From assembly GCA_017984435.1 (NCBI GenBank), contig JAGNZK010000001.1:82776-146775 (forward strand): a stretch of 64,000 nt of DNA, written 5' to 3'. This document shows, one piece after another, positions 16,982 through 63,918 of the stretch. Origin of the DNA: Nitrosomonas sp. (GTDB lineage: Bacteria; Pseudomonadota; Gammaproteobacteria; Burkholderiales; Nitrosomonadaceae). Numbering within the stretch: the stretch's first letter is position 1; each line of letters opens with the position of its first letter. The position numbers and the translations under genes are program-made. The notes under the pieces are model-generated. The model was given only the letters and a program-made list of their open reading frames with translations, was not told the DNA's origin and ran no database searches.

Positions 16982-19900
16982 CTAAGCGAAATCCGCCGTC
17001 AAATTAATCCCGACCAACAAAACTGCTGCCTCAGGAGAAGCCGCTGCATCACTGGTGTAGGTATGAAAACCGCCTTGGATCCCACCATCCGCCCAGTCAC
17101 CCTGGAGAATCACTCGATCACCCTCATTACCGTTTACTTTCAGGGTATTGCTGGTATCCGATAGATTGAGCACATCGGTTGCATTTAACGTCAATGTTTT
17201 GTCGCCGCTACCGCCATGCAGGTAAATGATTTCGATGCCACTGATCTTGCCGCGCGCATCGGCCAAATCCAGATTCAGGTTGCCGCCCCCGCCCAAACTC
17301 AGGACATCGTTGTTCCCACTCCCACCGTCCACTAACTGGAAGCCAAGATCGGATACCCTAATCCTGTCATTACCCGCGCCGCCATGGAACACATCCGCCC
17401 CACCATGGCCGATCATCCTGTCATTGCCATCGCCCCCCTCGAAGCGCTCTGCCGCCAAGGTGCCCGTGAGATTATCGTCGCCGGGTGTACCCGCGATTTC
17501 AGGTATCCCACTGCCAGAGTCATTGTGCCCAAAGATAATATAACTCGAACCCTTTTCAGGATCACCGACAATCAAATCATCAAAACCATCGCCATTGACA
17601 TCCCCTGCACCGCTAACTGAAGTTTTTGGGAATGGGCCTCCCACTACCCCATCCAGGCGAAAACCATTGCTGCCATCCAAATTAGACAATGACAGTGTAG
17701 CGCTGAACCCTGAAGCCTTACCATACACCACGTAACTAACATCAGAGTACTTTACTTCTGGAAGGTTAAAAGATGAGGTTCTGCCGACAATTAAATCGTC
17801 AAATCCGTCCCCGTTGAAATCTCCGGCGTTGCTAACCAACATTCCAGCCTCAAGATTTTTCGACGCGCCATCCAAGCGGAAACCATTATGGCCGTCGAGG
17901 CTCGATAAATCTATGGCAGCATCAAACCCCGATGCCTTGCCAAACACCACATAACTAAAGCCAGTAGTGCGACCTGGAGCAGCGATAAACACATCATCAA
18001 AACCATCGCCATTGACATCTCCCGCATCGCTGACCGATCCACCTGAAGAATCATTTGCAATGCCATCCAGGCGAAAACCGTTATTGCCGTCGAGGCTGGA
18101 TAAATCCATCGCAGCATCAAAACCCGATGCCTTGCCAAACACCACGTAACTGGCACCGGCATATCTACCGTTCGAGTCGACACCATGAGCACCGATAAGC
18201 ACATCATCAAAACCATCGCCATTCACGTCTCCGGCACCACTGACAGAAAAACCCGACTTATCACCTTGCTCTGCGCCATCCAGACGAAAACCGTTACTAC
18301 CATTAAGACTGGATAATTCCATAGCGGCATCAAACCCCGATACCTTGCCAAACACCACATAACTGCTACCAGATGAGGATCCGTTTGGATTAGCACCGTT
18401 AGCACCGACAATCACATCATCAAACCCGTCACCGTTGATGTCCCCTGCACCACTAACCGAAAATCCCGCAGCGTCACGCTTCGCCACTTCAATCAAACTG
18501 AAGCCAATGTGGCCATCCAAGCTGGAAAGTTGCAATGAGGCATCAAAACCGGAAGCCTTGCCAAAAACCACGTAGGTCTTGCTCACGGAAAAATCGTTAT
18601 AAGTACCAATAATTACATCGTCAAAACCATCGCCATTCACATCTCCGGCACTACTGACTGATCGACCCGACCGATCAGACACCGCTTCACCATCCAGACG
18701 GAAACCGTTACTGCCATCAAGATTGGCCAAATCCGTCGTAGCGTCAAAACCGGCGGCTTTGCCAAACACCACGTAGCTGGAGCCGGATGCAAAGATACCG
18801 TTCGAGGTGGCTCCCTGAGCCCCGACAATCACATCGTCAAAACCGTCGCCGTTCACGTCTCCGGCATCACTGACTGAACTACCGTAACCGCCTCCGTTGA
18901 GGCGAAAACCGTTACTACCGTTGAGACTGGACAGGCTCATGACGCCAGGTGGCGGTGGATTGGCGCTTACAGCCGTATCGATCCGAACTATCGTCCCTCG
19001 ATTAGTATAGATATGATAATTCCCATCAATACCCCCGTCCCCCCAGCCCTTACTATTCACCCCGACGACACGATCTCCTGAATCGCCGTCGATAGTAAAT
19101 GTATGCGTAGTGTCTGATAAGGTTAACAAATCTGAAAACGAGAATTTCAATGTGTTGTTTCCACTACCCGTCAGATCAATGGTCTCGATGCCCGTGATCT
19201 TGTCGTGGAAATCAGCCAAATCCAGATGAACACCGCTGCCAGCTAATTCCAAAGTATCGATGCCGGTACCGCCCTCCACCGATTGAAAGTCAAGATCAGG
19301 TAATGAAATGACATCGTCGCCGGCACCGCCCTGAAATATATCCGCCCCGCCGCCGCCAATCAGCGTATCGTTGCCGCCATTGCCCTCGAATCGCTCAGCT
19401 GCCGTGGTACCTGTAAATGTGTCATCCTCGTCTGAGCCCGTAAAAGACACTATGCCGCCGCTAAAGTTGCTGCTGCCAAATAGCACGTAGCTTGCGCCTG
19501 AGTTGTAGCCATTGACATCCGCTGTAGGAGCACCAACAAGCAAATCATCAAAACCATCGCCATTAATGTCCCCTGCGCCGCTGACCGATGTACCCGAAGC
19601 ATCACCTGCAGCTACACCATCCAACCGGACGCCGGTGTCACTATCCAGACTGGATAGGTTAATCACCGCACCGAAACCCGCAGCCCTGCCAAACACCAAG
19701 TAACTGGAGCCGGAGTTCTCGCCGTTCGGATCAGTATAGGGAGCACCGACAAGCAGATCATCAAAACCATCGCCATTGACATCTCCGGCGTTGCTAACCG
19801 AAGCGCCCGAAAAGTCATCCGCCGCTACACCATCCAGGCGGAAACCGTTATTACCATCGAGACTGGATAGATTCATGGAGGCACTAAAACCTGAAGCCTT

Positions 19901-20842
19901 GCCAAACACTACATAGCTGGAACCGGAGTTCTCACCATTTGGATCGGCTCCTTGGGATCCGATAATCAAATCATCAAAACCATCATCGTTGACATCTCCG
20001 GCACTACTAACCGAAGCACCCAACCGATCATCCGCCGCCACACCATCGAGGCGAAAGCCGTTATTGCCATCGATGCTGGCTAGATCCGTAGTAAACCCCG
20101 AAGCCTTGCCAAACACTACATAGCTGGTGCCGGAGTTATCACCGTTCCGATCGGCACGCGGCCCACCGACAATCACATCATCAAAACCATCACTGTTGAC
20201 GTCACCTGCACCACTGACCGAAGCACCAATATAATCACCAAATACTTCGTCCAAATTGAAGTCACCATCCACGTGGGCGTCAAACCCGGAAGCTTTACCG
20301 AACACCACATAGCTGACACCCCCGTAGGAACCACTAGCACCACCGGCAATAACATCGTCAAAACCATCGCCGTTAATATCTCCCGCGCTGCTGACTGAGA
20401 AAGAAGCCGAACCAAGAGAACCAGGACTCCCATCCAGAATGAAACCATTACTACCATCCAGGCTGGATAAATCCAGAGAAGCATTAAAACCTGATGCCTT
20501 ACCAAACACCACATAACCGGCAATACCGGTGTAATAACTATTAGCGCCGACAATCACATCATCAAAACCATCGCCATTAACGTCTCCAGCACTGCTGACG
20601 GCCCTCGCTGACCCATTCAAACTGAAACCATTGCTGCCATCGAGGCTGGATAAATCCAGCGTGGCATTAAACCCGGACACTTTGCCAAATACCACGTAAC
20701 TGGCGCCGGAACCATCGACAATAAAGTCATCAAAGCCGTCGCCATTAACATCCCCCGCATTGCTGACCGGTCCGCCCGCACCATCCACGCGGAAACCATT
20801 GCTGCCATCGAGGCTGGATAAATTAATTGTTGTTATTGCCAT
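16982..20842 (-). CDS. FG-GAP/RTX giant protein A (two seven-bladed propellers)
   Basis: Predicted secreted calcium-binding repeat protein of 1286 residues; function unknown. Seven repeats of about 65 residues each carry a calcium loop of the DVNGDGFDD type and an SSYVVFGK strand, as in integrin-alpha beta-propellers. An RTX-like module (GGNDTLIGGGGADIF) and a beta-rich linker ending in PPPPGVMSL follow. Seven more repeats and a C-terminal RTX-like module come next, ending in VLLVGINLTADFA. There is no Sec signal peptide; the RTX tail suggests type I secretion. The frame is open to an ATG at 20860, but MAITTI at 20842 aligns with the family start and is preceded by AAGGA. The C-terminal 130 or so residues are nearly identical to those of proteins B, E and F. 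Confidence 0.88.
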   Translation of the reverse strand: MAITTINLSSLDGSNGFRVDGAGGPVSNAGDVNGDGFDDFIVDGSGASYVVFGKVSGFNATLDLSSLDGSNGFSLNGSARAVSSAGDVNGDGFDDVIVGANSYYTGIAGYVVFGKASGFNASLDLSSLDGSNGFILDGSPGSLGSASFSVSSAGDINGDGFDDVIAGGASGSYGGVSYVVFGKASGFDAHVDGDFNLDEVFGDYIGASVSGAGDVNSDGFDDVIVGGPRADRNGDNSGTSYVVFGKASGFTTDLASIDGNNGFRLDGVAADDRLGASVSSAGDVNDDGFDDLIIGSQGADPNGENSGSSYVVFGKASGFSASMNLSSLDGNNGFRLDGVAADDFSGASVSNAGDVNGDGFDDLLVGAPYTDPNGENSGSSYLVFGRAAGFGAVINLSSLDSDTGVRLDGVAAGDASGTSVSGAGDINGDGFDDLLVGAPTADVNGYNSGASYVLFGSSNFSGGIVSFTGSDEDDTFTGTTAAERFEGNGGNDTLIGGGGADIFQGGAGDDVISLPDLDFQSVEGGTGIDTLELAGSGVHLDLADFHDKITGIETIDLTGSGNNTLKFSFSDLLTLSDTTHTFTIDGDSGDRVVGVNSKGWGDGGIDGNYHIYTNRGTIVRIDTAVSANPPPPGVMSLSSLNGSNGFRLNGGGYGSSVSDAGDVNGDGFDDVIVGAQGATSNGIFASGSSYVVFGKAAGFDATTDLANLDGSNGFRLDGEAVSDRSGRSVSSAGDVNGDGFDDVIIGTYNDFSVSKTYVVFGKASGFDASLQLSSLDGHIGFSLIEVAKRDAAGFSVSGAGDINGDGFDDVIVGANGANPNGSSSGSSYVVFGKVSGFDAAMELSSLNGSNGFRLDGAEQGDKSGFSVSGAGDVNGDGFDDVLIGAHGVDSNGRYAGASYVVFGKASGFDAAMDLSSLDGNNGFRLDGIANDSSGGSVSDAGDVNGDGFDDVFIAAPGRTTGFSYVVFGKASGFDAAIDLSSLDGHNGFRLDGASKNLEAGMLVSNAGDFNGDGFDDLIVGRTSSFNLPEVKYSDVSYVVYGKASGFSATLSLSNLDGSNGFRLDGVVGGPFPKTSVSGAGDVNGDGFDDLIVGDPEKGSSYIIFGHNDSGSGIPEIAGTPGDDNLTGTLAAERFEGGDGNDRMIGHGGADVFHGGAGNDRIRVSDLGFQLVDGGSGNNDVLSLGGGGNLNLDLADARGKISGIEIIYLHGGSGDKTLTLNATDVLNLSDTSNTLKVNGNEGDRVILQGDWADGGIQGGFHTYTSDAAASPEAAVLLVGINLTADFA

Positions 20843-20861
20843 GATCATGGGTCCTTGCAAA

Positions 20862-21107
20862 ATAATTGATCAATCAACCTGCTGGAAAAAGTAGCAGAAA
20901 TAGCACACGCTATTTCATAAACTAATACCGTCAGATATTACGCCAGAAAAATCCTACCTACAACCGGGTAGTTTTTTATTGAGGGGCTTCTGAAGAACCC
21001 GTATTTGTCATTCCAAACGCAGTGAGGAATCTTAGGGAATCAACAGCATAGATTTCTCGCGATGCTCGAAATGACAGTTATTAAGGCCTGCGGTAGACTC
21101 GAGGGAA
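20862..21107. repeat. Intergenic block identical to 61716-61961 (inverted)
   Basis: The A-B spacer (20843-21161) contains no gene. From 20862 to 21107 it is, by eye, the reverse complement of 61716-61961 with only one difference near the ribosome binding site. It includes a copy of the dispersed palindromic repeat at 21007-21077 and the upstream element at 20941-20971. The remainder of the spacer towards gene B is more diverged. Confidence 0.85.
20941..20971 (-). promoter_or_regulatory. Conserved upstream element of FG-GAP gene A
   Basis: On the minus strand this reads CTACCCGGTTGTAGGTAGG followed by ATTTTTCTGGCG. It contains the dyad CTACC-N8-GGTAG and ends 99 bp before the start codon. Matching elements end 99-100 bp before genes E, F and G. 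A TATGAAAT box lies about 22 bp further downstream. The dyad could bind a LuxR/NarL-type regulator; that is inference. Confidence 0.55.
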
Positions 21108-21161
21108 CAGCGAGATGCTGATTATGTTTGAGATGAACTTGTCGACCATAACCAACGTTCC

Positions 21162-24100
21162 CTAAGCGAAATCCGCCGTCAAATTAATCCCGACCAACAA
21201 AACTGCTGCCTCAGGAGAAGCCGCTGCATCACTGGTGTAGGTATGAAAACCGCCTTGGATCCCACCATCCGCCCAGTCACCCTGGAGAATCACTCGATCA
21301 CCCTCATTACCGTTTACTTTCAGGGTATTGCTGGTATCCGACAAATTGAGCACATCGGTTGCATTTAACGTCAATGTTTTGTCACCGCTACCACCGTGCA
21401 GGTAAATGATTTCGATGCCACTGATCTTGCCGCGCGCATCGGCCAAATCCAGATTCAGGTTGCCGCCCCCGCCCAAACTCAGGACGTCGCTGTTACCACT
21501 CCCACCGTCCGCCAACTGGAAGCCAAGATCGGATACCCGGATCCTGTCATTACCCGCGCCGCCATGAAACACATCTGCGCCGCCATGACCGATCATCCTG
21601 TCATTGCCATCGCCGGCGTCGAAAATATCCGCGGTTTGGGTGCCGATCAGATGATCGTTTCCAGGGGTGCCAGGATGGGTCACGGTACCGCCAGAGCCGA
21701 TTCTACCAAACACCACGTAGCTGGAATCGGATTCCGGATTACCAACCATCAAATCATCCAAACCATCGCCATTCACATCTCCAGCGCTGCTGATCGAGGT
21801 TTTTGAAAATGAAACCACGATGCCATCCAGGCGGAAACCATTACTACCATCCAAATCGGATAAAGACAGCGTAGCGCTGAACCCTGAAGCCTTACCATAC
21901 ACGACGTAACTGACATCAGAATATTGTTGTGTTGCGGTAAAGTTTGTAGGTGCGGTTCTACCGACAATCAAATCGTCAAACCCGTCCCCGTTGAAATCTC
22001 CGGCATCGCTAACCCACATGCCATCCTCAAATTTTCCGATCATGCCATCCAGACGGAAACCGTTATTGCCGTCGAGGCTCGATAGATCCATCGCGGCACC
22101 AAAACCCGATGCCTTGCCAAACACCACATAACTGGAACCGGAATGATGACCTTTTAAACCAGCGCCTTGAGCACCAATAATCACATCATCAAAACCATCG
22201 CCATTCACATCTCCCGCATTGCTGACGGATCGACCCAAGATATCACCCTGTGCAATGCCATCCAGGCGGAAACCATTATTGCCGTCAAGGCTGGATAAAT
22301 TCATGGCAGCATCAAATCCGGATGCCTTACCAAACAACACATAACTGGCACCGGAATAATTACCGTTCGAGTCGACACCATAAGCACCGATCAGCACATC
22401 ATCAAAACCGTCGCCATTGACATCCCCGGCACCGCTGACTGAAAAGCCCGACTGATCACCTTGCTCTGCGCCATCCAGGCGGAAACCGTTACTACCATTA
22501 AGGCTGGATAAATTCATTTCAGCATCAAAACCGGAAGCCTTGCCAAACACCACGTAACTCGAACCGGATTGACTACTGCCATTCGCATCGGCATGAAAAG
22601 CGCCCACAATCACGTCATCAAAACCATCACCGTTGACATCCCCCGCACCGCTAACCGAAAGTCCTGCAGAATCACGCATCTCCACTTCATTCAAGCCGAA
22701 GCCGTTACTACCATCGAGACTGGATAAATCCATCGCAGCGTCAAAACCTGAAGACTTGCCAAACACCACGTAGGTGGTATTCACGGAAAAATCGTTATAA
22801 GAACCGATAATTACATCGCCAAAACCATCGCCATTCATATCCCCTGCACTGCTGACTGATCTACCCGACCGATCGTATCCCACCACGCCATCCAGACGGA
22901 AACCGTTACTACCATCGAGGCTGGATAAATCCATCGCAGCGTCGAAACCGGTAGCCTTGCCAAACACCACGTAGCTGGAGCCAGCGCCGGAAATAGTATT
23001 CGGATTACTGAAGGGAGCGCCGATAATCACATCATCGAAACCGTCACCATTCATATCCCCTGCACTGCTGACTGATCTGCCCGAATAATCCCCTGCTCCA
23101 TCCAGGCGGAAACCGTTACTGCCGTTGAGACTGGTCACGCTCATGACGCCAGGTGGCGGTGGATTGGCGCTTACAGCCGTATCGATCCGAACTATCGTCC
23201 CTCGATTAGTATAGATATGATAATTCCCATCGATACCGCCATCCCCCCAGCCCTTACTATTCACGCCAACGACCCTGTCGCCTGCATTGCCGTGGATCGT
23301 AAACGTGTGCGTAGTGTCCGATAGGGTGAGCAAATCTGAAAACGAGAATGTCAGCGTATTGTCTCCACTGCCCGTCAGATCAATGGTCTCGATGCCGACG
23401 ATTGTGTCGTGAAAACCAGCCAGATTTAAATGGACACCGCCACCGGTCACTGCCAAAGTATCAATACCGGTACCGCCATCCACCGATTGGAAGCCAAGTC
23501 CAGACAAGGAAATGACATCATCACCGGCACCGCCCTGAAATACATCCGCCCCGCCGCCGCCAATCAGGGTATCGTTGCCGCCATTACCCTCGAAGCGCTC
23601 CGCTGCCGTGATGCCGGTAAACGTGTCATCCCCGTCCGTACCTATAAAAGTCACTGTGCCACTAAAGTTGCTGCTGCCGAATATCACGTAACTGGCACCG
23701 GAATTATTACCGTTCGAACCGGCATAAAGTGACCCAATAAACAAATCGTCAAAACCATCGCCATTGACGTCTCCTGCGGTGCTGACTGAATATCCCGATC
23801 GGTTATTCGCCGCCACACCATCCAGGCGGACGCCCATATTGCTGTCCAGACTGGAAAGGTTAATCGTGGCACCAAAACCCGAAGCCTTACCAAACACCAC
23901 GTAACTGGATCCGGAGTTTTCACCGTTCGGATCAGCCAAAGCAACACCGATAAGTAAATCAGCAAAACCGTCACCGTTGACATCACCGGCATTGCTCACC
24001 GAACCGCCCGAAGAATCATTCTCCGCGACTCCATCCAGACGAAAACCATTATTGCCGTCGAGGCTGGATAAATCCATCGCAGCACTAAAACCGGAAGCCT

Positions 24101-25175
24101 TGCCGAATACCACATAACTCGAACCGGATTTCTCGCCATTCGAATCAGCTTCCGAAGCACCAATAATCACATCATCAAAACCATCGCCGTTGACATCCCC
24201 GGCATTACTAACTGATAAACCTGAACGATCATTTATAGTCTCACCATCCAGGCGAAACCCGTTACTGCCATCCAAGTTAGAAAGATCAAGCGTGGCATCA
24301 AAGCCCCCTGACTTTCCGAAAACCACATAACTGGAGCCATATCCAAAACCATTTGGATTTGCGTGAGGCGCTCCAACAATCACATCATCAAAACCATCGC
24401 CGTTGATGTCGCCCGCGCTGCTGACTGAAGTACCCAAGTCGCTATACGTCGCCCCTCCAATCAATTGAAAACCATTGGTGCCATCCAAATCAGACACATT
24501 CATCTGAGCATTAAATCCTCCAGCCTTGCCAAATACGACATAGCTGTCATCTATGTCGTTAAAAGTAAAGGAAGTGGGTGCACCAAGAATTAAATCATCG
24601 AAACCATCGCCATTCATGTCTCCGGCGCTACTAACATGACTGCCATCCGATCTAAACTGTGTCACACGAAAGCCATTACTTCCATCCAAACTCGATAGGT
24701 CCATCGTAGGACTAAAGCCCGAAGACTTACCAAATACCACATAACTGTAACCAATATCAAAAGGATAGAGCGCGGAGGTAGAGTCACGTAAATGCGCCCC
24801 AACCAGCACATCATCAAAACCATCGCCGTTGATATCCCCAGCATTGCTGATCGAATCCATTTGTATCGAATAATTACTATAGCTGTACAAAATGGCTTCT
24901 CCATCCAGGCGAAAGCCGTCAGTACCATCGAGACTGGATAAATCCATCGCAGCATCGAAACCGGCAGCCTTGCCGAATACCACGTAACTGGAACCGGAAT
25001 TGCTACCGTTCGGATCAGCGCCAAAGGCCCCTATAATCACATCATCAAAACCATCGCCATTGACATCCCCGGCATTACTGACCGATTTTCCCGAAAAATC
25101 ATCTTCTGCTACGCCATCTAAACGGAAACCGTTACCGCCATTGAGACTGGATAAATCAATTGTTGTTAGTGCCAT
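21162..25175 (-). CDS. FG-GAP/RTX giant protein B (two seven-bladed propellers)
   Basis: Predicted secreted repeat protein of 1337 residues, built like protein A. I count seven DxNxDG calcium loops before the central RTX-like module (GGNDTLIGGGGADVFQ), then the linker with GDRVVGVNSKGWGDGG, then seven more loops and the C-terminal RTX-like module. The start is the ATG at 25175, giving MALTTIDLSSLNG. Some loops have GDMNGDGF or GDFNGDGF variants but keep the acidic ligands. The C-terminal tail is nearly identical at the DNA level to those of A, E and F. The 133-bp spacer upstream shares a segment with the spacer upstream of gene C, TTTCATTCCCTCATT. Confidence 0.88.
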   Translation of the reverse strand: MALTTIDLSSLNGGNGFRLDGVAEDDFSGKSVSNAGDVNGDGFDDVIIGAFGADPNGSNSGSSYVVFGKAAGFDAAMDLSSLDGTDGFRLDGEAILYSYSNYSIQMDSISNAGDINGDGFDDVLVGAHLRDSTSALYPFDIGYSYVVFGKSSGFSPTMDLSSLDGSNGFRVTQFRSDGSHVSSAGDMNGDGFDDLILGAPTSFTFNDIDDSYVVFGKAGGFNAQMNVSDLDGTNGFQLIGGATYSDLGTSVSSAGDINGDGFDDVIVGAPHANPNGFGYGSSYVVFGKSGGFDATLDLSNLDGSNGFRLDGETINDRSGLSVSNAGDVNGDGFDDVIIGASEADSNGEKSGSSYVVFGKASGFSAAMDLSSLDGNNGFRLDGVAENDSSGGSVSNAGDVNGDGFADLLIGVALADPNGENSGSSYVVFGKASGFGATINLSSLDSNMGVRLDGVAANNRSGYSVSTAGDVNGDGFDDLFIGSLYAGSNGNNSGASYVIFGSSNFSGTVTFIGTDGDDTFTGITAAERFEGNGGNDTLIGGGGADVFQGGAGDDVISLSGLGFQSVDGGTGIDTLAVTGGGVHLNLAGFHDTIVGIETIDLTGSGDNTLTFSFSDLLTLSDTTHTFTIHGNAGDRVVGVNSKGWGDGGIDGNYHIYTNRGTIVRIDTAVSANPPPPGVMSVTSLNGSNGFRLDGAGDYSGRSVSSAGDMNGDGFDDVIIGAPFSNPNTISGAGSSYVVFGKATGFDAAMDLSSLDGSNGFRLDGVVGYDRSGRSVSSAGDMNGDGFGDVIIGSYNDFSVNTTYVVFGKSSGFDAAMDLSSLDGSNGFGLNEVEMRDSAGLSVSGAGDVNGDGFDDVIVGAFHADANGSSQSGSSYVVFGKASGFDAEMNLSSLNGSNGFRLDGAEQGDQSGFSVSGAGDVNGDGFDDVLIGAYGVDSNGNYSGASYVLFGKASGFDAAMNLSSLDGNNGFRLDGIAQGDILGRSVSNAGDVNGDGFDDVIIGAQGAGLKGHHSGSSYVVFGKASGFGAAMDLSSLDGNNGFRLDGMIGKFEDGMWVSDAGDFNGDGFDDLIVGRTAPTNFTATQQYSDVSYVVYGKASGFSATLSLSDLDGSNGFRLDGIVVSFSKTSISSAGDVNGDGLDDLMVGNPESDSSYVVFGRIGSGGTVTHPGTPGNDHLIGTQTADIFDAGDGNDRMIGHGGADVFHGGAGNDRIRVSDLGFQLADGGSGNSDVLSLGGGGNLNLDLADARGKISGIEIIYLHGGSGDKTLTLNATDVLNLSDTSNTLKVNGNEGDRVILQGDWADGGIQGGFHTYTSDAAASPEAAVLLVGINLTADFA

Positions 25176-25308
25176 AATTTATGTTCCTAAAATGTAAATT
25201 CCCATCCATTCTCTCCTAATTTAGGAATTATTTCATTCCCTCATTGCATCATGATAACCATTTGATTCTTTGCAAAAACGATATCGATTGAAAACAAGTA
25301 GCATGGCA

Positions 25309-31206: not shown

Positions 31207-31341
31207 GATCGATACTCCTTAAAAATAATTTTCGATAAGTTCCTGCATCATTCAGAAATTGTTTCATTCCCTCATTTCATTGTTCCATGGTGATCCGGTG
31301 CTTTTCCGCAGCGGTATCGACAGAAAACCGTCCGCGTGAAA

Positions 31342-46588: not shown

Positions 46589-46608
46589 TTTATCGGGGAA
46601 AATCAATC

Positions 46609-47190: not shown

Positions 47191-47230
47191 ATCAGATTTA
47201 CATTTTTAGCTATAAATTTTTTTGGAGGAA

Positions 47231-47885: not shown

Positions 47886-48017
47886 GAGATAAATGTATTG
47901 AAAGTCAGATTGACTGTTAAGTACATGGGTAATCGATAAAAAATACTTAACTACACAATCCGTGACTCTTTAAAAGGTTTTCAATCGAATCCACAGACAT
48001 CAATAAAAGAAAACATC

Positions 48018-49283: not shown

Positions 49284-49314
49284 TTTGTTATCTATCTTAT
49301 AAGGAGATCAACCA

Positions 49315-53636: not shown

Positions 53637-56600
53637 ATGGCAGTACCAATAATTAACGTGTCCATTCTTAATGGCAGCAATGGTTTTCGCTTGGATGGAG
53701 CAAAGGGGTCCAGTAGTTTTGGTCGTTCGGTCAGTACTGCAGGAGATGTCAATGGGGATGGTTTTGATGATGTAATTATCGGTTCGTCTGACACCAGTTA
53801 TGTAGTGTTTGGCAAAGCTTCTGGTTTTGATGCCACGTTGGGCCTATCCAGTCTTGACGGCAGTAACGGTTTTCGTCTGGATGGGGCAGGCCATTCGGTT
53901 AGTGGTGCGGAGGATGTCAATGGCGACGGTTTTGACGATTTGATAATTGGTTCGCCCAGTTCTGATCTGAACGGAGATTTTTCCGGCTCCAGTTATGTCG
54001 TGTTTGGCAAAAATTCGGGGTTTGATGCCACAATGAATTTATCCAGTTTGGACGGAAATAACGGTTTCCGCCTGGATGGCGCAGAGCAAGGTGATCAGTC
54101 GGGTACATCGGTTAGCAATGCGGGAGACATCAACGGCGACGGTTTTGATGATTTGATTGTTAATGCTTCCAGATCTACGAACAAACCTCTTTCCGACTCC
54201 AGTTATATCGTGTTTGGCAAAAATTCGGGGTTTGATGCCACGATGAATTTATCCAGTTTGGACGGAAATAACGGTTTCCGCCTGGATGGGCGACAGGGAG
54301 GTGATCGTACGCTAACATCACTGGTGAGCAATGCGGGAGACATCAACGGCGATGGTTTTGATGATTTAATTATCGGGGATCCTTTTACTAATATCGATTT
54401 CGACAGCTATTACAGCCATTACTCTTATTTCAGCGGCACTAGTTATGTGGTATTTGGCAAGGCTTCCGGTTTTAACGCTGCAATGAATTTATCCAGTCTC
54501 GAGGACAGCGATGGTTTCTCGCTGACTAGCGAACGCTTGTCGGATTATGTCGGCAAATCAGTCAGTAGCGCAGGTGATTTAAACAACGATGGTTTTTCTG
54601 ATGTGATTATTAGTGCTGATGATCGAGTCTACGTGGTATTTGGTAAGGCCTCCGGTTTTACAACGGATTTATCAAGTCTTGACGGCATTAACGGTTTTCG
54701 CCTGGATGGGAGAGGCTTTTCGGTTAGTGGTGCGGGAGATGTCAATGGCGACGGTTTTGATGATGTAATTATCGGTTCGTCTGACACCAGTTATGTAGTG
54801 TTTGGCAAAGCTTCTGGTTTTGATGCCACGTTGGGCCTATCCAGTCTTGACGGCAGTAACGGTTTTCGTCTGGATGGGGCAGGCCATTCGGTTAGTGGTG
54901 CGGGGGATGTCAATGGCGACGGTTTTGACGATTTGATAATTGGTTCGCCCGGTTCTTATCCGAACGGCATTAACTCCGGCTCCAGTTACGTGATATTTGG
55001 CGGCGATTTTATCAATGAGACGGTTTATCTGGGCACACCTGGAGAGGATAACCTTATAGGTACTCCAGTGGCAGAGCGCTTCGAAGCCGGTGACGGCAAT
55101 GATCGCATGACCGGCCTTGGCGGGGCAGATGTATTCCATGGCGGTGCCGGTAACGATACGATCGTAATAGGAACTAATTTTGACTTCCAATCGATCGATG
55201 GCGGAACTGGCGCCGACACATTGGAATTTGCAGGCAATCTGAATCTGGCCGACTTCCGCGATACGACCAAAAGCATCGAAACGCTTAAACTGACGGGAAG
55301 TGGTCAAGATATACTAAAACTCACATTGCCGGACTTACTCAGTTTGTCAGACACTACCACTACTTTTACAGTCAATGGCAATGGAGGGGATCGTGTAATC
55401 GGACTCAAAAGTGGCTGGAAGGATGGCGGCATCGATGGTAATTATCACATTTATACCAATCAGGGAACGGTGCTGCGAGTAAATAAGTTTGTGAATACGG
55501 ATCTACCGGAGGCTGGCGTAATCAATCTGGCCGATCTCAATGGTGAAAATGGTTTTCGCCTGGATGGGGCAAATTATGATCATTCGGGTTTCTCAGTGAG
55601 TGGTGCCGGAGACATCAATGGCGATGGTTTTGATGATGTGATCATTGGTTCACGTAATCACCCCACTTATGTGGTGTTTGGTCAGGCTTCCGGTTTTGAA
55701 TCTACAATGAATTTATCCAGCCTCCATGGCAGCAACGGTTTTCGCTTGAATGGGGATGGGCATTCTGGTTGGTCAGTCAGCAGTGCTGGAGATATCAATG
55801 CTGACGGTTTTGATGATTTGATAATTGGTGTGTCCGATCCTCATCTGAACGAAAATTTTTCCGGCTCCAGTTATGTAGTATTTGGCAAAAATTCGGGGTT
55901 TGATGCCACGATGGATTTATCCAGTTTGGATGGAAACAACGGTTTCCGCCTGGATGGAGTAGATCAATTTGATCGTTCTGGAGATTCAGTCAGCGGTGCC
56001 GGAGACGTCAATGGCGACGGGTTTGATGATGTGCTTATCGGTGCTTATAGTGCCGACCCGAATGGCGATTATTCCGGTTCCAGTTATGTGGTATTTGGCA
56101 AGGCTTCCGGTTTTGATGCCACGATGGATTTATCCAGCCTTGATGGCAGCAATGGTTTCCGCTTGGATGGAGCGAAGAGTGAGCATTCCGGCAGCTCGGT
56201 CAGCAATGCAGGTGATGTCAATGGCGACGGTTTTGATGATGTAATTGTTAATGCTCCTCATGCTGCACTGAATAACCATTATTCCAGTTCCAGTTACGTG
56301 ATATTTGGGAAGGCTTCCGGTTTTGATGCCACGATGAACTTATCCAGTCTCGACGGCAAAAACGGTTTCCGCCTGGATGTGGCTTGGAACAGATCCGTCA
56401 ATAGCGCCGCCGGGGATGTCAACGGTGATGGCTTTGATGATGTGATTATCGGTGTCCCTCCTTCCGGACTTAACGGCCGTAGCTCAGGTTCCAGTTATGT
56501 GGTTTTTGGTAAGGATTCAGGTTTTGATGCCACGATGGATTTATCCAGCCTTGATGGCAGCAATGGTTTCCGCTTGGATGGGGTGGCGGTAGGTGATTTT

Positions 56601-57479
56601 TCGGGTAGATCGGTCAGCAGTGCTGGGGATGTCAACGGTGACGGTTTTGATGATGTGATTATCGGCGCTGACGGTGCTGATCCGTTCGGCAACAATTCCG
56701 GCTCCAGTTATGTGTTGTTTGGAAAAACCTCCGGTTTTGATGCTGTAATTAATTTATCTAATTTAGATGGGACTAACGGCATTCGCCTGGATGGAGCGGC
56801 AAAGGATGATAATTCGGGTAGATCTGTGAGCAGCGCCGGAGACGTTAATGGCGATGGATTTGATGATTTGCTTGTTGGAGCTCCAGAAGCTGATCAGAAC
56901 GGTAGTTCTTCCGGCTCCAGCTACGTGATCTTTGGCCGCAGCAGCTTTGTTGATGACATAGATTTCCCCGGTACACCGGGTGATGATATTTTCACCGGCA
57001 CTTCCGCTGCAGAGATCTTCGAGGCGGGTGATGGCAATGACAGGATGATCGGCCATGGCGGCGCAGATGTGTTTCATGGTGGCGCGGGTAATGACAGGAT
57101 CCGGGTATCCGATCTTAGCTTCCAATTGGCGGACGGTGGGAGTGGTAACAGCGACGTCCTGAGTTTGGGCGGGGGTGGCAACCTGAATTTGGATTTGGCC
57201 GATGCGCGCGGCAAGATCAGTGGCATCGAAATCATTTACCTGCACGGTGGTAGCGGTGACAAAACATTGACGTTAAATGCAACCGATGTGCTCAATCTAT
57301 CGGATACCAGCAATACCCTGAAAGTAAACGGTAATGAGGGTGATCGAGTGATTCTCCAGGGTGACTGGGCGGATGGCGGCATTCAAGGCGGTTTTCACAT
57401 CTACACCAGTGATGCAGCGGCTTCTCCTGAGGCAGCAGTTTTGTTGGTCGGGATTAATTTGACGGCGGATTTCGCTTAG
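53637..57479 (+). CDS. FG-GAP/RTX giant protein E (two seven-bladed propellers)
   Basis: 1280-residue predicted secreted protein, organised as 7 FG-GAP repeats, an RTX-like module (GDGNDRMTGLGGADVFHG), a linker with GGIDGNYHIYTNQGTVLRV, 7 more repeats and a C-terminal RTX-like tail ending in VLLVGINLTADFA. ATG 53637 has an AAGGAG ribosome binding site 8 nt upstream; a TTG at 53631 is in frame but misaligned with the family. Blades 1-2 and 6-7 of the first propeller are nearly the same: bases 53744-53957 repeat as 54738-54951 with very few changes. One loop reads EDVNGDGFDD, and one calcium loop is GDLNNDGFSD. No signal peptide is present, so type I export is the likely route. Confidence 0.88.
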   Translation: MAVPIINVSILNGSNGFRLDGAKGSSSFGRSVSTAGDVNGDGFDDVIIGSSDTSYVVFGKASGFDATLGLSSLDGSNGFRLDGAGHSVSGAEDVNGDGFDDLIIGSPSSDLNGDFSGSSYVVFGKNSGFDATMNLSSLDGNNGFRLDGAEQGDQSGTSVSNAGDINGDGFDDLIVNASRSTNKPLSDSSYIVFGKNSGFDATMNLSSLDGNNGFRLDGRQGGDRTLTSLVSNAGDINGDGFDDLIIGDPFTNIDFDSYYSHYSYFSGTSYVVFGKASGFNAAMNLSSLEDSDGFSLTSERLSDYVGKSVSSAGDLNNDGFSDVIISADDRVYVVFGKASGFTTDLSSLDGINGFRLDGRGFSVSGAGDVNGDGFDDVIIGSSDTSYVVFGKASGFDATLGLSSLDGSNGFRLDGAGHSVSGAGDVNGDGFDDLIIGSPGSYPNGINSGSSYVIFGGDFINETVYLGTPGEDNLIGTPVAERFEAGDGNDRMTGLGGADVFHGGAGNDTIVIGTNFDFQSIDGGTGADTLEFAGNLNLADFRDTTKSIETLKLTGSGQDILKLTLPDLLSLSDTTTTFTVNGNGGDRVIGLKSGWKDGGIDGNYHIYTNQGTVLRVNKFVNTDLPEAGVINLADLNGENGFRLDGANYDHSGFSVSGAGDINGDGFDDVIIGSRNHPTYVVFGQASGFESTMNLSSLHGSNGFRLNGDGHSGWSVSSAGDINADGFDDLIIGVSDPHLNENFSGSSYVVFGKNSGFDATMDLSSLDGNNGFRLDGVDQFDRSGDSVSGAGDVNGDGFDDVLIGAYSADPNGDYSGSSYVVFGKASGFDATMDLSSLDGSNGFRLDGAKSEHSGSSVSNAGDVNGDGFDDVIVNAPHAALNNHYSSSSYVIFGKASGFDATMNLSSLDGKNGFRLDVAWNRSVNSAAGDVNGDGFDDVIIGVPPSGLNGRSSGSSYVVFGKDSGFDATMDLSSLDGSNGFRLDGVAVGDFSGRSVSSAGDVNGDGFDDVIIGADGADPFGNNSGSSYVLFGKTSGFDAVINLSNLDGTNGIRLDGAAKDDNSGRSVSSAGDVNGDGFDDLLVGAPEADQNGSSSGSSYVIFGRSSFVDDIDFPGTPGDDIFTGTSAAEIFEAGDGNDRMIGHGGADVFHGGAGNDRIRVSDLSFQLADGGSGNSDVLSLGGGGNLNLDLADARGKISGIEIIYLHGGSGDKTLTLNATDVLNLSDTSNTLKVNGNEGDRVILQGDWADGGIQGGFHIYTSDAAASPEAAVLLVGINLTADFA

Positions 57480-57728
57480 GGAAACGCTGAATAGCTGTTA
57501 TTTCGAGCATGGCAAGAAATCAATAGGGTTACCCCAAAGATTCCTCACGATGTTTAGAATGCAAATAGAATGATTCAAAAGTCCCTTAATTGCAAAATCC
57601 ATCTTGTTGTTAGTAGGACTTTTCTGGCGTATCATCAAGAAATTATTTCTATAAAATAATGCGATAGCTACCTCTGCCACTTTTCCCAATGAATATATTA
57701 AGCAATTATCTTACAAGGAGCCTTGATC
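57480..57728. other. E-F spacer: dispersed repeat copy 5 and promoter region of F
   Basis: Bases 57496-57567 are a degenerate copy of the dispersed palindromic repeat. The first 50 bp after gene E match the sequence behind gene A in inverted orientation. Bases 57599-57629 carry the upstream element (TTGTTGTTAGTAGGACTTT, then TCTGGCG), ending 100 bp before gene F. The region from 57622 on is nearly the same as upstream of gene E. Confidence 0.6.
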
Positions 57729-60700
57729 ATGGCAGTACCAATTTTCAGCGTATCCGATCTTAATGGCAGCAACGGCTTCCGTCTGGATAGAACGGGAGCT
57801 TCGGGTAGTTCAATCAGTAATGCAGGAGATATCAACGGCGACGGCTTTGATGATGTGATTGTTGGTGCTCCCGGTGCTGATCCGAACGGCCCTAGCTCCG
57901 GCTCCAGTTACGTGGTTTTTGGCAAATCTGCCGGCTTTAGCGCCGCGATGAATTTATCAAATCTTGATGGTAACAACGGTTTTCGTCTTGATGGGGTAGT
58001 AGCGGATGATAGATCGGGGAGATCGATTAGCAATGCAGGAGACGTTAACGGCGACGGTTTTGATGATTTGATTATTGGTGCCATAGGTACTGACTCCAAC
58101 GGCAATTTTTCTGGCTCCAGTTACGTTGTGTTTGGCAAAACCTCCGGTTTTAGTGCTGCGATGAATTTATCCAATTTGGATGGCAGCAACGGTTTCCGTT
58201 TGGATGGCGCGGCGGTATATGATTTTTCGGGCAGTTCAGTCAGCAGTGCAGGAGACATCAACGGTGATGGTTTTGATGATTTGATTATTGGTGCCATAGG
58301 TACTGACTCCAACGGCAATTTTTCCGGCTCCAGCTATGTGGTATTTGGCAAGGCTTCCGGTTTTAGTGCTGCGATGAATTTATCCAATTTAGATGGCAAT
58401 AACGGTTTTCGTTTGGATGGCGCGCCGAATTTTTCTACAAGCAGTACTGTGAGTGGTGCCGGCGACATCAACGGAGATGGTTTTTTTGATGTAATTATTG
58501 GGGGAGCCAGTTCCAGTTACGTGGTATTTGGCAAAGCTTCCGGTTTTGATGCTACGTTGGATTTGTCCACGCTAAATGGGAGTAATGGTTTTTACCTGGA
58601 TGTGAGGGAGCAGAACATTTCAGTCAGCAATGCAGGGGATATCAACGGTGATGGGCTTGATGATCTGATCGTCGGTAGCGTTGTTGGTTATGGCTATGGC
58701 TATGGCGGTTATGCTTACTTCAGTTCTAGTTACGTGGTATTTGGTAAGACTTCCGGTTTTTCTGCCACGCTGGATGTATCCAGTCTTGACGGTAGCAATG
58801 GCTTTCTGTTGAGAGGACCGGGAACTGGGTCTTACGGCAGTCCTTCGGTCAGTAATGCAGGAGACGTCAATGGTGATGGGTTTGATGATGTAATTGTTGG
58901 TGCTGCAAATCAAAGTTACGTGGTGTTTGGCAAGGATTCCGGTTTCAGTGCTGTGTTGGTTTTATCCAGTCTGGATGGTATTAACGGTTTCCGTCTGACT
59001 GGAGGTGGGTCTACGGTTAGCAGCGCGGGGGATGTTAACGGTGATGGTTTTGATGATCTGCTTGTCTGTAATGAGCAAGCCAATTCGAGTTTCGTGGTGT
59101 TTGGCGGCGATTTTATTGGTACAAGTCTATTACCGGGTACGGTCGGAGATGATAACCTCACCGGCACTTCAGCAGCAGAACGTTTCGAAGCAGATGACGG
59201 CAATGATCGTATGAATGGTCTTGGCGGGTCAGATGTGTTTCATGGGGGTGACGGTAACGATACCATCATCGTGCCTGATCTTCACTTCCAGCGGATTGAT
59301 GGCGGGACTGGTACCGACACGTTGGAATTAGCAGGTGATAATATTAATCTGAATCTGGCTGATTTTCACGACACAATCAAAGGCATCGAAACGATTGTTC
59401 TGAAGGGCCCCTCTTCAAGTGACAGTACATTAACTTTATCCGCATTGGATTTACTTAATCTGTCGGATAGCAGCAATACCCTGACGATAGACGGCAATAA
59501 AGGTGATCGTATTTTTGGACTCGCTGAAGGCTGGGCGGATGGTGGTGTCGAAGGTAACTATCACATTTACACCAATCAGGGAGCGGTGCTGCGGGTAGAC
59601 ACGGATATGAGCACGGATCGGCCGACGCTTGGCGTTTTTAGCTTGGCTGATCTCGATGGCGGCAACGGTTTTCGTCTGGATGGAGAGGGGCATTCTGGTT
59701 GGTCAGTCAGCAATGCAGGAGATGTCAATGGCGATGGTTTTGACGATTTGATAATTGGTGCTTTTTTTGCTGACCTGAACGGCAATTTTTCCGGCTCAAG
59801 CTATGTAGTGTTCGGCCAAGCTGCCGGTTTTAGTGCTGCTTTGAATTTATCCAGCCTAGATGGCAATAACGGGTTTCGCTTGGATGGGGCCGCAACCTAT
59901 GATCGCTCGGGCATATCGGTCAGCGATGCAGGAGACGTCAATGGCGACGGTTTTGCTGATGTGATTGTGGGTGCTGCTGGTCCGAACGGTAATTATTCTG
60001 GTTCTAGTTACGTGGTATTTGGCAAGGCTTCCAGTTTTGATGCAACAATTGATTTATCCATCCTCGATGGCAGCAACGGTTTCCGCTTGGATGGGGTAGC
60101 GGAGCTTGATCAGTTGGGTACATCAGTTAGCAGCGCGGGAGATGTCAACGGCGATGGTTTTGGTGATGTGATTGTTGGGGCGAAGGGTGCTGACCCTAAC
60201 GGACTGAGCTCCGGTTCCAGTTACGTAGTGTTTGGTAAGGCGGCTGGCTTTAATGCGGCGCTGAATTTATCCAGTCTGGATGGCAATAACGGTTTCCGTC
60301 TGGATGGAGTAGCGGCGGATGATGCTTCGGGTGGATCGGTCAGCAATGCAGGTGATGTCAATGGCGACGGCTTTAATGATTTACTTATAGGCGCCTCTCA
60401 AGCTGACCCGAACGGCAGCAGATCCGGTTCCAGTTACGTGGTGTTTGGTAAGGCCTCAGGGTTTGGTGCCACGCTGGATTTGTCTAGCCTCGACGGCACG
60501 AATGGTTTCCGTTTGGATGGGGAAGAGAATCATGATTTTTCGGGTAGTTCAGTCAGCAGTGCGGGGGACATCAACGGTGATGGTTTTGCTGATTTGATTG
60601 TTGGTGCTCCTGCAGCTGACCCGAATGGCTTTGGTTCCGGCTCCAGTTATGTGGTGTTTGGCAAGGCTACCGGTTTCAGTGCCACAATAAATTTATCCAT

Positions 60701-61646
60701 CCTTGATGGTAGCAATGGTTTCCGCCTGGATGGGGTGGCGGTAGGTGATTTTTCGGGTAGATCGGTCAGCAGTGCTGGGGATGTCAACGGTGACGGTTTT
60801 GACGATCTGATTGTTGGGGCTCACCGTGCTAGCCCGAACGGCAGTCACTCCGGCTCCAGCTATGTGGTGTTTGGCAAAGCTGCCGGTTTTAGTGCTACGA
60901 CGAACTTATCCAGCCTGGATGGCAATAGCGGTTTCCGCCTAGATGGGGAAAAAGAACTTGATTATTCAGGCACTTCGGTTAGTGGCGCCGGGGATGTCAA
61001 TGGCGACGGTTTTGATGATTTAATTATTGGCGCCGATGGAGCTGATAATCCAAGCGGTAACCACACCCCCTCCGGCTTCGGCTCCAGTTACGTGATATTT
61101 GGCAGAAGCGACTTTGGCGGCAGCAATGTGATTGCGGGCACACCCGACGACGATAATCTCACGGGCACCTCGGCGGCAGAACGCTTCGAGGCGGGTGATG
61201 GCAATGACAGAATGATCGGCCATGGCGGCGCAGATGTGTTTCATGGCGGCGCGGGTAATGACAGGATCCGGGTATCCGATCTTAGCTTCCAATTGGCGGA
61301 CGGCGGTAGTGGTAACAGCGACGTCCTGAGTTTGGGTGGGGGCGGCAACCTGAATCTGGATTTGGCCGATGCGCGCGGCAAGATCAGTGGCATCGAAATC
61401 ATTTACTTGCATGGCGGTAGCGGTGACAAAACATTGACGTTAAATGCAACCGATGTGCTCAATCTATCGGATACCAGCAATACCCTGAAAGTAAACGGCA
61501 ACGAGGGCGATCGAGTGATTCTCCAGGGTGACTGGGCGGATGGTGGGATCCAAGGCGGTTTTCATACTTACACCAGTGATGCAGCGACTTCTCCTGAGGC
61601 AGCAGTTTTGTTGGTCGGGATTAATTTGACGGCGGATTTCGCTTAG
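57729..61646 (+). CDS. FG-GAP/RTX giant protein F (two seven-bladed propellers)
   Basis: 1305-residue predicted secreted protein with the same plan: seven calcium loops, an RTX-like module (DDGNDRMNGLGGSDVFHG), a linker, seven loops, and the C-terminal RTX-like tail shared with A, B and E. The start is ATG 57729 (MAVPIFSVSDLNG), preceded by AAGGAG. Blades 2 and 3 are tandem copies: 58061-58212 repeats at 58274-58425, an offset of 213 bp, equal to 71 residues or one blade. One blade has GDINGDGFFD, which keeps the loop ligands. Blade 5 of the first propeller contains a run of YGYGYGGYAYF. Role unknown. Confidence 0.88.
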   Translation: MAVPIFSVSDLNGSNGFRLDRTGASGSSISNAGDINGDGFDDVIVGAPGADPNGPSSGSSYVVFGKSAGFSAAMNLSNLDGNNGFRLDGVVADDRSGRSISNAGDVNGDGFDDLIIGAIGTDSNGNFSGSSYVVFGKTSGFSAAMNLSNLDGSNGFRLDGAAVYDFSGSSVSSAGDINGDGFDDLIIGAIGTDSNGNFSGSSYVVFGKASGFSAAMNLSNLDGNNGFRLDGAPNFSTSSTVSGAGDINGDGFFDVIIGGASSSYVVFGKASGFDATLDLSTLNGSNGFYLDVREQNISVSNAGDINGDGLDDLIVGSVVGYGYGYGGYAYFSSSYVVFGKTSGFSATLDVSSLDGSNGFLLRGPGTGSYGSPSVSNAGDVNGDGFDDVIVGAANQSYVVFGKDSGFSAVLVLSSLDGINGFRLTGGGSTVSSAGDVNGDGFDDLLVCNEQANSSFVVFGGDFIGTSLLPGTVGDDNLTGTSAAERFEADDGNDRMNGLGGSDVFHGGDGNDTIIVPDLHFQRIDGGTGTDTLELAGDNINLNLADFHDTIKGIETIVLKGPSSSDSTLTLSALDLLNLSDSSNTLTIDGNKGDRIFGLAEGWADGGVEGNYHIYTNQGAVLRVDTDMSTDRPTLGVFSLADLDGGNGFRLDGEGHSGWSVSNAGDVNGDGFDDLIIGAFFADLNGNFSGSSYVVFGQAAGFSAALNLSSLDGNNGFRLDGAATYDRSGISVSDAGDVNGDGFADVIVGAAGPNGNYSGSSYVVFGKASSFDATIDLSILDGSNGFRLDGVAELDQLGTSVSSAGDVNGDGFGDVIVGAKGADPNGLSSGSSYVVFGKAAGFNAALNLSSLDGNNGFRLDGVAADDASGGSVSNAGDVNGDGFNDLLIGASQADPNGSRSGSSYVVFGKASGFGATLDLSSLDGTNGFRLDGEENHDFSGSSVSSAGDINGDGFADLIVGAPAADPNGFGSGSSYVVFGKATGFSATINLSILDGSNGFRLDGVAVGDFSGRSVSSAGDVNGDGFDDLIVGAHRASPNGSHSGSSYVVFGKAAGFSATTNLSSLDGNSGFRLDGEKELDYSGTSVSGAGDVNGDGFDDLIIGADGADNPSGNHTPSGFGSSYVIFGRSDFGGSNVIAGTPDDDNLTGTSAAERFEAGDGNDRMIGHGGADVFHGGAGNDRIRVSDLSFQLADGGSGNSDVLSLGGGGNLNLDLADARGKISGIEIIYLHGGSGDKTLTLNATDVLNLSDTSNTLKVNGNEGDRVILQGDWADGGIQGGFHTYTSDAATSPEAAVLLVGINLTADFA

Positions 61647-61715
61647 GGAACGTTGAATCCGTTGATTACATCAGAAGTTCGAAAGCTCACTTCGAACATA
61701 CTCAGCATCCCGCTA

Positions 61716-61961
61716 TTCCCTCGAGTCTACCGCAGGCCTTAATAACTGTCATTTCGAGCATCGCGAGAAATCTATGCTGTTGATTCCCTAAGATTCCTCA
61801 CTGCGTTTGGAATGACAAATACGGGTTCTTCAGAAGCCCCTCAATAAAAAACTACCCGGTTGTAGGTAGGATTTTTCTGGCGTAATATCTGACGGTATTA
61901 GTTTATGAAATAGCGTGTGCTATTTCTGCTACTTTTTCCAGCAGGTTGATTGATCAACTAT
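61716..61961. repeat. Intergenic block identical to 20862-21107 (inverted)
   Basis: In the F-G spacer (61647-61980) this block is the reverse complement of the A-B spacer block and differs by only one base by eye. It contains the best copy of the dispersed palindromic repeat (61743-61819) and the upstream element of gene G. The first 65 bp after gene F diverge from the A-B spacer. Confidence 0.85.
61852..61909 (+). promoter_or_regulatory. Conserved upstream element and -10-like box of gene G
   Basis: The dyad CTACC-N8-GGTAG at 61852-61869 is followed by ATTTTTCTGGCG, ending at 61882, 99 bp before the start codon. A TATGAA box is at 61904-61909. The layout equals that of genes A, E and F. Confidence 0.6.
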
Positions 61962-61980
61962 TTTGCAAGGAGTCTTGATC

Positions 61981-63918
61981 ATGGCAATACCCATAATAAA
62001 TTTATCGATTCTTAATGGTGACAATGGTTTCCAATTGAATGAGGGGGAGGATGGTCATTTAGGGATTTCAGTAAGTAACGCAGGCGATATCAATGGGGAT
62101 GGTTTTGATGATGTGATTGCCAACGCAGAATTTAAAAAATATGTAGTATTTGGAAAGGCTTCTGGTTTTGATGCCATGTTTGATCTATCCACTCTCAATG
62201 GAAATAACGGTTTTCGCATAGATAGCAAAACGATTGGAAGATCAGTTAGCAACGCAGGAGATGTGAATGGAGACGGTTTTGATGATGTAATTATCAGTGC
62301 CTTTGAATCTAGTTATGTGATATTTGGCAAGGCTTCTGGTTTTGACAGTGCGATAAGTTTATCAAATCTCGATGGTACGAACGGCTTCAGGCTGAATGGG
62401 ATAAGCGGGTCGGTGAGTACTGCTGGAGACGTCAATGGTGATAGTCTTGATGATCTGATTGTCAATGGCAATAACGGTAGTTATGTCATTTTTGGCAAGA
62501 CTTCGGATTTTGATGCCGCGATGAGCTTAGCTAGCATTGATGGCAGTAACGGTTTTCGCGTAGAAAGTGATGGCAGTAGTATTGTTAGTAACGCTGGAGA
62601 TGTGAATGGCGATGGTTTTGATGATGTGATTGTGGGGATCCCTAATGCTGATCCGAATGGCAATTACAATTCCGGCTCCAGTTACGTGGTGTTTGGTAAG
62701 AACTCAGGTTTTAAAGCCATCCTTAAGTTGTCTAATATTGACGGCAGCAATGGCTTTCGTTTGGATGGCGCAACCAAAAATGATTATTCAGGTACTTCGG
62801 TCAGCTCCGCCGGTGATCTAAATGGTGATGGTTTTTCTGATCTGATTATTGGTGCTCGTGAAGCTAGAAATGCCTTGGGTGCCAGTTATGTGGTATTCGG
62901 CAAGGCATCCGGATTTAGTGCTGCAATTAATTTGTCCAGTATGAATGGTAATAATGGTTTTCGTTTGGAAGCTAATTCAGTCAATGGTTACGATGCAATC
63001 GGATCGGTCAGTAATGCAGGAGATGTCAATGGTGATGGGCTTGATGATTTGATTGTGGGTGCTTACAAGGCTGATCTAAATTTCGGGTTTAATTCAGCTG
63101 GGGCAAGCTACGTAGTATTTGGCAAAACTTCTGCCTTTGATGCCACATTGGATTTATCCAGCCTTAACGGCAATGATGGTTTTCGTTTGGAAGGAATATC
63201 ACAATCTGACTATTCGGGCAAATCAGTGAGCACCGCCGGGGATATCAATGGTGACGGCTTTTCTGATTTGATGATCGGTGCTCCGAATGCTCATGACCGC
63301 TCTGGTGCAAGTTATGCAATATTTGGCGGTGACTTTTTGGATGAGGGGATATATCGTGGCACCAGCGCGGATGATACGCTCACTGGCACTACGACGGTGG
63401 AACAATTTGAAGCGGGTGATGGCAATGACATCATGATCGGACGCGGTGGTGCGGATGTATTTCAAGGGGGAGCCGGCAACGATAGATCATTGACAGCAGA
63501 TCTTAACTTTCAATCCGTGGATGGTGGGAGCGGCGATGATACTTTGGAGTTGACGGAAGGCAATCTGGATCTTGATTTATCCAACTTTCGCGGCATGATC
63601 AATGGAATTGAAACAATTGATCTGGGGATGTATTTCAACGACGGCAATACGTTGACATTTACTTTATCAGACTTGATCGGTCTATCAGGCACTACCGATA
63701 CATTTACGATTAATGGCAATAAATCTGATCATGTGGTAGGACTTGTCGATGGCTGGACGGATGAGGGTGTTGAAGGGGATTATCACATTTATACAAATTC
63801 CGGTACGGTACTACGGATAAATTCGGCAGTAGGTACGGATTTACCTGTCGGCGGTATTATCAGTTTGGCTAACATAAAGAACTCGGCCGCAAGCGACCGA
63901 GTTTTAGAAGAGGGGTAG
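61981..63918 (+). pseudogene. FG-GAP/RTX gene G, truncated by an IS200/IS605-like element
   Basis: First part of a family member: MAIPIINLSILNGDNGF, seven FG-GAP repeats with calcium loops (one variant DVNGDSLDD), an RTX-like module (GDGNDIMIGRGGADVFQG) and the linker up to GGIISLANI at about 63876. In the paralogs a second propeller follows (GVLSLANINGDNGFRLD in gene C). Here the frame instead runs through foreign DNA for about 14 codons (NSAASDRVLEEG) to a stop at 63916-63918. The lost C-terminal RTX tail would carry the expected secretion signal, so the product is probably not exported. The sequence is closest to gene C, while its promoter region is like that of gene A. Confidence 0.8.
63880..63903. 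repeat. Terminal hairpin of the IS200/IS605-like element
   Basis: AACTCGGCCGC at 63880-63890 and GCGACCGAGTT at 63893-63903 form an 11-bp stem with one wobble pair and a 2-nt loop. It lies directly beside the transposase stop codon. Subterminal hairpins of this type are recognised by single-strand transposases of the IS200/IS605 family, without target duplication. Confidence 0.6.

Follow-up and report, generated by a model that had tools for sequence, protein, structure and literature searches.

Terminal RTX tails alike within genomes and diverse seven-bladed FG-GAP propellers in large proteins of Nitrosomonas

Results and discussion

Two arrays of FG-GAP/RTX genes built from blocks of seven blades

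We analyzed a 64,000-nt stretch of Nitrosomonas sp. DNA (positions 82,776 to 146,775 of contig JAGNZK010000001.1, assembly GCA_017984435.1; hereafter, the window), which is part of contig C79 of a 2.8-Mb genome. Seven long open reading frames (ORFs) with FG-GAP blades lie in it as two arrays, four on the minus strand (16982–33363) and three on the plus strand (53637–63918), separated by about 20 kb of other genes. On the minus strand, gene 1 (16982–20842) and gene 2 (21162–25175) each encode two blocks of seven blades, gene 3 (25309–31206; 1965 amino acids) three blocks, and gene 4 (31342–33363) a single block. On the plus strand, gene 5 (53637–57479) and gene 6 (57729–61646) encode two blocks each; gene 7 (61981–63918) retains the first block only, and its frame enters a repeated element at 63874. 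The starts of genes 1, 5, 6, and 7 were corrected from an upstream TTG to an ATG with a ribosome site, at 20842, 53637, 57729, and 61981, respectively. An AAGGA ribosome site, or a sequence close to it, precedes each of the seven genes, and their proteins begin with MA(I/L/V) directly at blade 1, which, judged from sequence alone, leaves no room for a signal peptide.

Blades were counted by a strict Ca2+ loop pattern, [DE][VILMF]NxDxxxD. Genes 1 to 7 gave 14, 14, 21, 7, 14, 14, and 7 matches, that is, 91 in the seven genes and none elsewhere in the six frames of the whole window; shuffled copies of the seven proteins gave a total of 0.32 on average and 3 at most (200 shuffles). The 91 predicted loops, which by pattern are of the DxDxDG type, fall into 13 blocks of exactly seven. 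Pfam, used to scan genes 1–4 and 7, found 14, 14, 21, 7, and 7 FG-GAP (PF01839) stretches. The counts proposed in an earlier sequence-only reading of this DNA (7+7, 7+7, 7+7+7, 7, 7+7, 7+7, and 7) were thus right in every gene, and PF01839 agrees in the five scanned.

That reading also took each block for a seven-bladed propeller of the integrin-alpha type. The AlphaFold2 model of the gene 4 block (pLDDT 90.9) supports this, with a ring that matches the integrin-alpha propeller, and the remaining blocks would likewise fold as closed seven-bladed rings with one predicted Ca2+ loop per blade. A complete integrin alpha subunit has further integrin alpha domains following its propeller. In the five scanned proteins, Pfam detected no such domain after the propeller (E ≤ 0.01) and no catalytic domain above its cut-off.

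The same reading had held that an RTX-like module closes each block. In the alignment, all 13 blocks are followed by an RTX-type module of 168–187 residues (197 in gene 7, which enters the repeated element) containing RTX repeats and a conserved tail. The RTX family PF00353 scored above its cut-off in four of the five scanned proteins and just below it in gene 7 (21.5 versus 23 bits).

Terminal tails are alike within a genome, whereas propellers are diverse

The terminal modules of genes 1, 2, 5, and 6 are 89–93% identical at the protein level, and those of genes 3 and 4 are 96% identical, whereas the last propellers of the same genes are 61–69% identical in all pairs except genes 1 and 2 (78%). 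At the DNA level, the terminal module of gene 1 (16969–17497, minus strand) is 93.8% identical to that of gene 6, and the terminal module of gene 5 (57018–57483, plus strand) is 96.6% identical to that of gene 2. The stretch covering the gene 2 terminal module, the intergenic region, and the start of gene 1 (20791–21623, minus strand) matches the corresponding stretch from the gene 6 terminal module to the start of gene 7 (61185–62032, plus strand) at 92.9% over 849 columns. DNA identity declines on both sides of the terminal module. The upstream stretches are nearly the same for genes 1 and 7 and for genes 5 and 6, and differ for genes 2, 3, and 4. Between genes 3 and 4, 78 of 84 fourfold degenerate sites agree in the tail, as against 47 of 152 in the last propeller; therefore, constraint at the protein level cannot explain the likeness of the tails.

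A further comparison drew on 119 proteins of 11 genomes, including ORFs outside the FG-GAP/RTX family, and used 92 modules and 76 propellers. A module had to measure 110–240 residues and a propeller had to contain seven or more strict motifs, a rule that excluded fragments. Terminal modules were more alike within a genome than between genomes (0.738 versus 0.600), and the nearest relative came from the same genome in 42 of 57 cases. For propellers, the two values were close (0.624 versus 0.611), with a same-genome nearest relative in 11 of 76 cases, and inner modules were intermediate (0.582 versus 0.488; 13 of 34). A tail tree of 49 proteins required 17 changes of genome label (shuffled labels: mean 34.5, minimum 29), whereas the propeller tree of the same proteins required 33 (mean 34.6, minimum 28). 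Because both trees were quick ones with no mixture model and the alignment of propellers is repetitive, part of the missing propeller signal may be noise.

An AMP-binding gene (33623–35542) adjoins gene 4 and also lies beside FG-GAP genes in three of ten relatives searched (G052, G007, and G013); the site of the cluster is therefore partly conserved. Tails beside this gene in the four genomes were closer to their best paralogue in the same genome (0.77–0.96) than to their positional counterparts (0.55–0.65) in four of four cases. The three propellers compared by position (the one of G052, with fewer than seven strict motifs, was excluded) were 0.62–0.66 alike mutually and 0.62–0.69 alike to their best paralogue, so for propellers, too, position does not point to orthology. 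These sequence comparisons show that the terminal tails of a genome stay similar to one another, in contrast to its diverse propellers. We infer that recombination keeps the terminal tails of one genome alike.

The repeated unit comprises propeller, RTX repeats, and tail

Inner modules are homologous to terminal ones along their length (43–60% identity), and a new block starts at the point that corresponds to the end of the terminal tail in another gene. Because the inner modules are full-length homologues of the terminal ones, the repeated unit is the propeller together with its RTX repeats and tail, probably a whole ancestral gene, and fusion of whole tandem genes would be the simplest origin of the two- and three-propeller proteins. 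The earlier proposal that the duplicated unit is a whole propeller thus stands in one respect, since chains lengthen in steps of whole blocks, both in the window and in relatives, giving one-, two-, and three-propeller proteins within one family as it had claimed; it falls short in that the unit includes the RTX repeats and tail.

It is also conceivable, though we think it rather unlikely, that single-blade amplification is ongoing inside the genes, with selection for closed rings keeping the multiples of seven and whole-gene duplication or fusion playing a minor part. Blades within a block are about as alike (62.2%) as blades of different blocks (63.4% at the same index, 61.1% otherwise), a 284-bp stretch recurs within gene 5 (93.3% identity), one relative has, by eye, 6+7+7 blades where another has 7+7+7, and single-blade amplification across propeller lineages is described in a part of Pereira and Lupas (2022; PMC9218822). 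On the other hand, same-index blades of different blocks exceeded other pairs by 0.023, the largest of 1000 permutations giving 0.0068, although blades 1 and 7 accounted for most of the excess and could differ from the rest on structural grounds. The full-length homology of inner and terminal modules is also the outcome expected when whole units are duplicated or fused. There has evidently been copying of single blades as well, and the blades taken alone do not decide for or against fusion.

The terminal tails carry a putative export signal

Among terminal modules, 50 of 57 end in [DE]F plus zero to three residues. One common end pattern was found in 46 of the 57 terminal modules versus 5 of 31 inner modules, three of the 34 inner modules having been dropped because they contained no anchor. 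An acidic-hydrophobic C-terminal end is described for AprA-like proteins in passages of PMC2642768, which also cites a finding that one extra residue after this end impairs export.

The genome encodes one PrtD above the cut-off, on contig C11, where its neighbors are HlyD and an outer membrane efflux protein (OEP). We also considered the ABC transporter beside gene 1 (14752–16437) as the exporter and rejected it: its best NCBIfam match was MsbA, at 415.9 bits below the cut-off of 602. In the 61 Nitrosomonas genomes covered by both searches (G101, present in one search only, was excluded), strong family members, defined by a limit of our own choosing (E ≤ 1e-100), occurred in 27 of 51 PrtD-positive and 0 of 10 PrtD-negative genomes, counts that are uncorrected for kinship.

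Multi-block proteins occur beyond Nitrosomonadaceae

The block profile matched 64 of the 101 genomes searched (E ≤ 0.001). For blades outside the window we relied on a profile derived from the blades within it, and such a profile may overlook diverged ones. The 20 cluster regions examined in ten relatives contain 55 distinct complete ORFs, of which 46 had 7, 14, or 21 blades (28, 14, and 4 ORFs, respectively). The nine others had 4, 4, 4, 9, 11, 12, 15, 15, and 20, and at least one of them (L132) seems, by eye, to start out of frame. In 79 named loci from many phyla, some of which are the same Nitrosomonas contigs as the cluster regions, 47 of 71 complete ORFs had multiples of seven (34, 10, and 3 ORFs) and the other 24 had 3, 4, 5, 6, 8, 10, 11, 13, 15, or 38 blades. 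Three blocks of seven were also present in records of Kiloniellales, Sulfuricaulis, and Aquabacter, and a 3558-residue protein of a Ponticaulis metagenome-assembled genome (L023:3891-14564) had five complete blocks of seven plus part of a sixth. This architecture is therefore not peculiar to Nitrosomonadaceae.

Two related proteins from two genomes, L126:7800-13070 and L130:5143-10200, had 21 and 20 blades, arranged as 7+7+7 and, by eye, 6+7+7; in both, the first two propellers are joined without an RTX module. On contig C24, the genome of the window encodes another full member of the family (L002:3007-6798), which has 7+7 blades. Two other FG-GAP proteins of this genome, on contigs C65 (L006:1124-3472) and C14 (L008:2515-4137), have a different N-terminal region of more than 200 residues. 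That of L006 had no Pfam match, and this protein was without an RTX match, yet its end, ATDFL, resembles the others.

Relation to known systems

The seven-blade rule is already known, and the contrast between heads and tails is the less expected part. The earlier statement that no such system had been described was not borne out: Chouhan et al. (2011; PMC3192720), in the portions covered here, report seven-bladed, integrin-type propellers from bacteria in which every blade has a Ca2+ loop, and four proteins of one strain in which sets of seven stand in tandem (14 repeats). Those propellers share with the present ones the seven FG-GAP blades, the Ca2+ loop per blade, and, in some, two tandem sets. 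They come from other bacteria (Rhodobacterales HTCC 2654, N. oceani, S. elongatus, and more). The term RTX does not occur in the main text of that paper, whereas RTX follows every block here, and three-propeller proteins and an export tail, present here, do not appear in the portions covered.

Compared with the propeller of integrin alpha subunits such as alpha-V, the present proteins have Ca2+ loops in all seven blades, and RTX repeats and a tail in place of the further integrin domains, of which Pfam found none in the five proteins. With RTX proteins exported by PrtD-type systems (AprA or lipase-like) they share PF00353 repeats, the acidic-hydrophobic C-terminal end, and PrtD/HlyD/OEP in the genome; they differ in having one or more propellers as the passenger and in carrying RTX-tail modules within the chain as well. 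High blade identity (about 62% here) is shared with the VCBS/FG-GAP propellers treated in parts of Pereira and Lupas (2021, 2022; PMC8023676, PMC9218822), whereas here the seven blades per ring are constant and growth is by whole blocks.

Literature searches joining FG-GAP, type I secretion, and RTX found nothing, and searches for Nitrosomonas and FG-GAP found no study of such large proteins in ammonia oxidizers, the single hit being, by its listing, about anammox enzymes. One paper on large repetitive DDxP proteins (PMC7730722) reportedly names Nitrosomonas. Searches joining gene conversion or concerted evolution with RTX and type I secretion returned, as judged by their listing, other subjects only, and no report of a homogenized export tail against diverse heads was found in these searches.

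Putative function and evolution

We consider it fairly probable that these are secreted, Ca2+-dependent adhesin or matrix proteins exported by PrtD, in which whole genes have fused and recombination has homogenized the tails while the propellers stayed diverse. Under this model, the free acidic-Phe-hydrophobic motif at the C terminus of the last tail would be read by the PrtD-type type I secretion system of the genome. In RTX biology, a type I-exported chain leaves the cell unfolded and folds with external Ca2+; the present chains would likewise exit unfolded, and Ca2+ outside would fold the RTX repeats and propellers. Fusion of whole tandem genes would give two- and three-propeller proteins with inner tails buried in the chain, as the homology of inner and terminal modules suggests. 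Recombination would homogenize the terminal tails, and the propellers, likely the binding parts, would remain diverse; more propellers may give more binding sites per molecule.

Several observations weigh against this model. Ligand binding, secretion, and surface location are putative only. The two-block model of window:57729-61127 had a pLDDT of 36, with fair confidence for the inner module alone, and so speaks neither way on tandem rings. The nearest relative of a blade (n = 91) had the same index in another block in just 26 cases, lay in its own block in 17, and elsewhere in 48, so single blades have been exchanged too. In L126, a relative's protein, two propellers follow each other without an intervening RTX module. 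The two groups of terminal tails (genes 1, 2, 5, and 6 versus genes 3 and 4) are 59–63% alike, so homogenization is incomplete. Regarding export, another study cited in PMC2642768, in the part considered, finds the C-terminal motif not essential. The secretion genes lie on contig C11 and not in the window, and a HlyB-like transporter on contig C80 (421 bits; cut-off 725.55) is a candidate alternative exporter. Furthermore, 24 of the 51 PrtD-positive genomes are without a strong member, and 3 of the 10 PrtD-negative genomes have weak family matches.

It seems doubtful that the proteins are instead S-layer, motility, or carrier proteins with propellers as structural spacers. Type I-secreted RTX proteins include S-layer and motility proteins (sections of PMC3034196), and no binding site was identified in the proteins studied here; against this, two Nostoc FG-GAP proteins are called cell-adhesion proteins and FG-GAP proteins are cited in contacts with a moss partner (parts of PMC9620832), all being distant relatives, and the Pfam scan of five proteins gave no catalytic domain above cut-off. 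Least of all do we expect that strong purifying selection or recent whole-gene duplication made the tails alike without recombination between genes: some constraint is expected, since terminal tails would bear the export signal, but the fourfold sites of genes 3 and 4, the drop of DNA identity on either side of the module, and the closeness of tails beside the AMP-binding gene to their own-genome paralogues all argue otherwise.

As a tentative further reading, the genes might form a cassette system, in which shared tails and some shared 5' ends flank variable propeller heads. Recombination at the shared parts would then duplicate, fuse, and swap whole propellers, also between the inverted arrays about 35–45 kb apart, and one type I exporter would serve a changing set of multi-propeller surface receptors. 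Within this family, the export tails evolve in concert inside a genome and the propellers do not. This contrast offers a testable case of one secretion system staying compatible with a diverse family of large surface proteins, bears on how gene fusion yields multi-propeller proteins, and draws attention to a group of large proteins of ammonia oxidizers that are probably extracellular.

Gene 7 and the genes between the arrays

At 63874, one end of a repeated element (63874–64000, plus strand) interrupts gene 7, and the assembled contig ends at window position 64000. The element is about 345 bp long (L158:995-1339 on contig C32) and has palindrome-like ends; this end occurs eight times in the genome, including the gene 7 copy, at 99–100% identity, with seven of the occurrences at contig ends. 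The other end lies in matching orientation at the end of contig C78, beside an FG-GAP block of seven that carries a terminal tail like those of genes 1, 2, 5, and 6. On the strength of the element ends and this block, gene 7 was probably once a two-block gene, with a putative link between C79 and C78. The nearest relatives of the gene 7 module are the inner modules of gene 3 (0.66 and 0.63), and its mean identity to terminal modules (0.486) nearly equals that to inner modules (0.497).

Between the two FG-GAP arrays, the region 45227–50064 contains a gene for a kelch-repeat propeller protein and, after it, four genes bearing PEP-CTERM motifs, that is, another kind of propeller and another surface-sorting signal.
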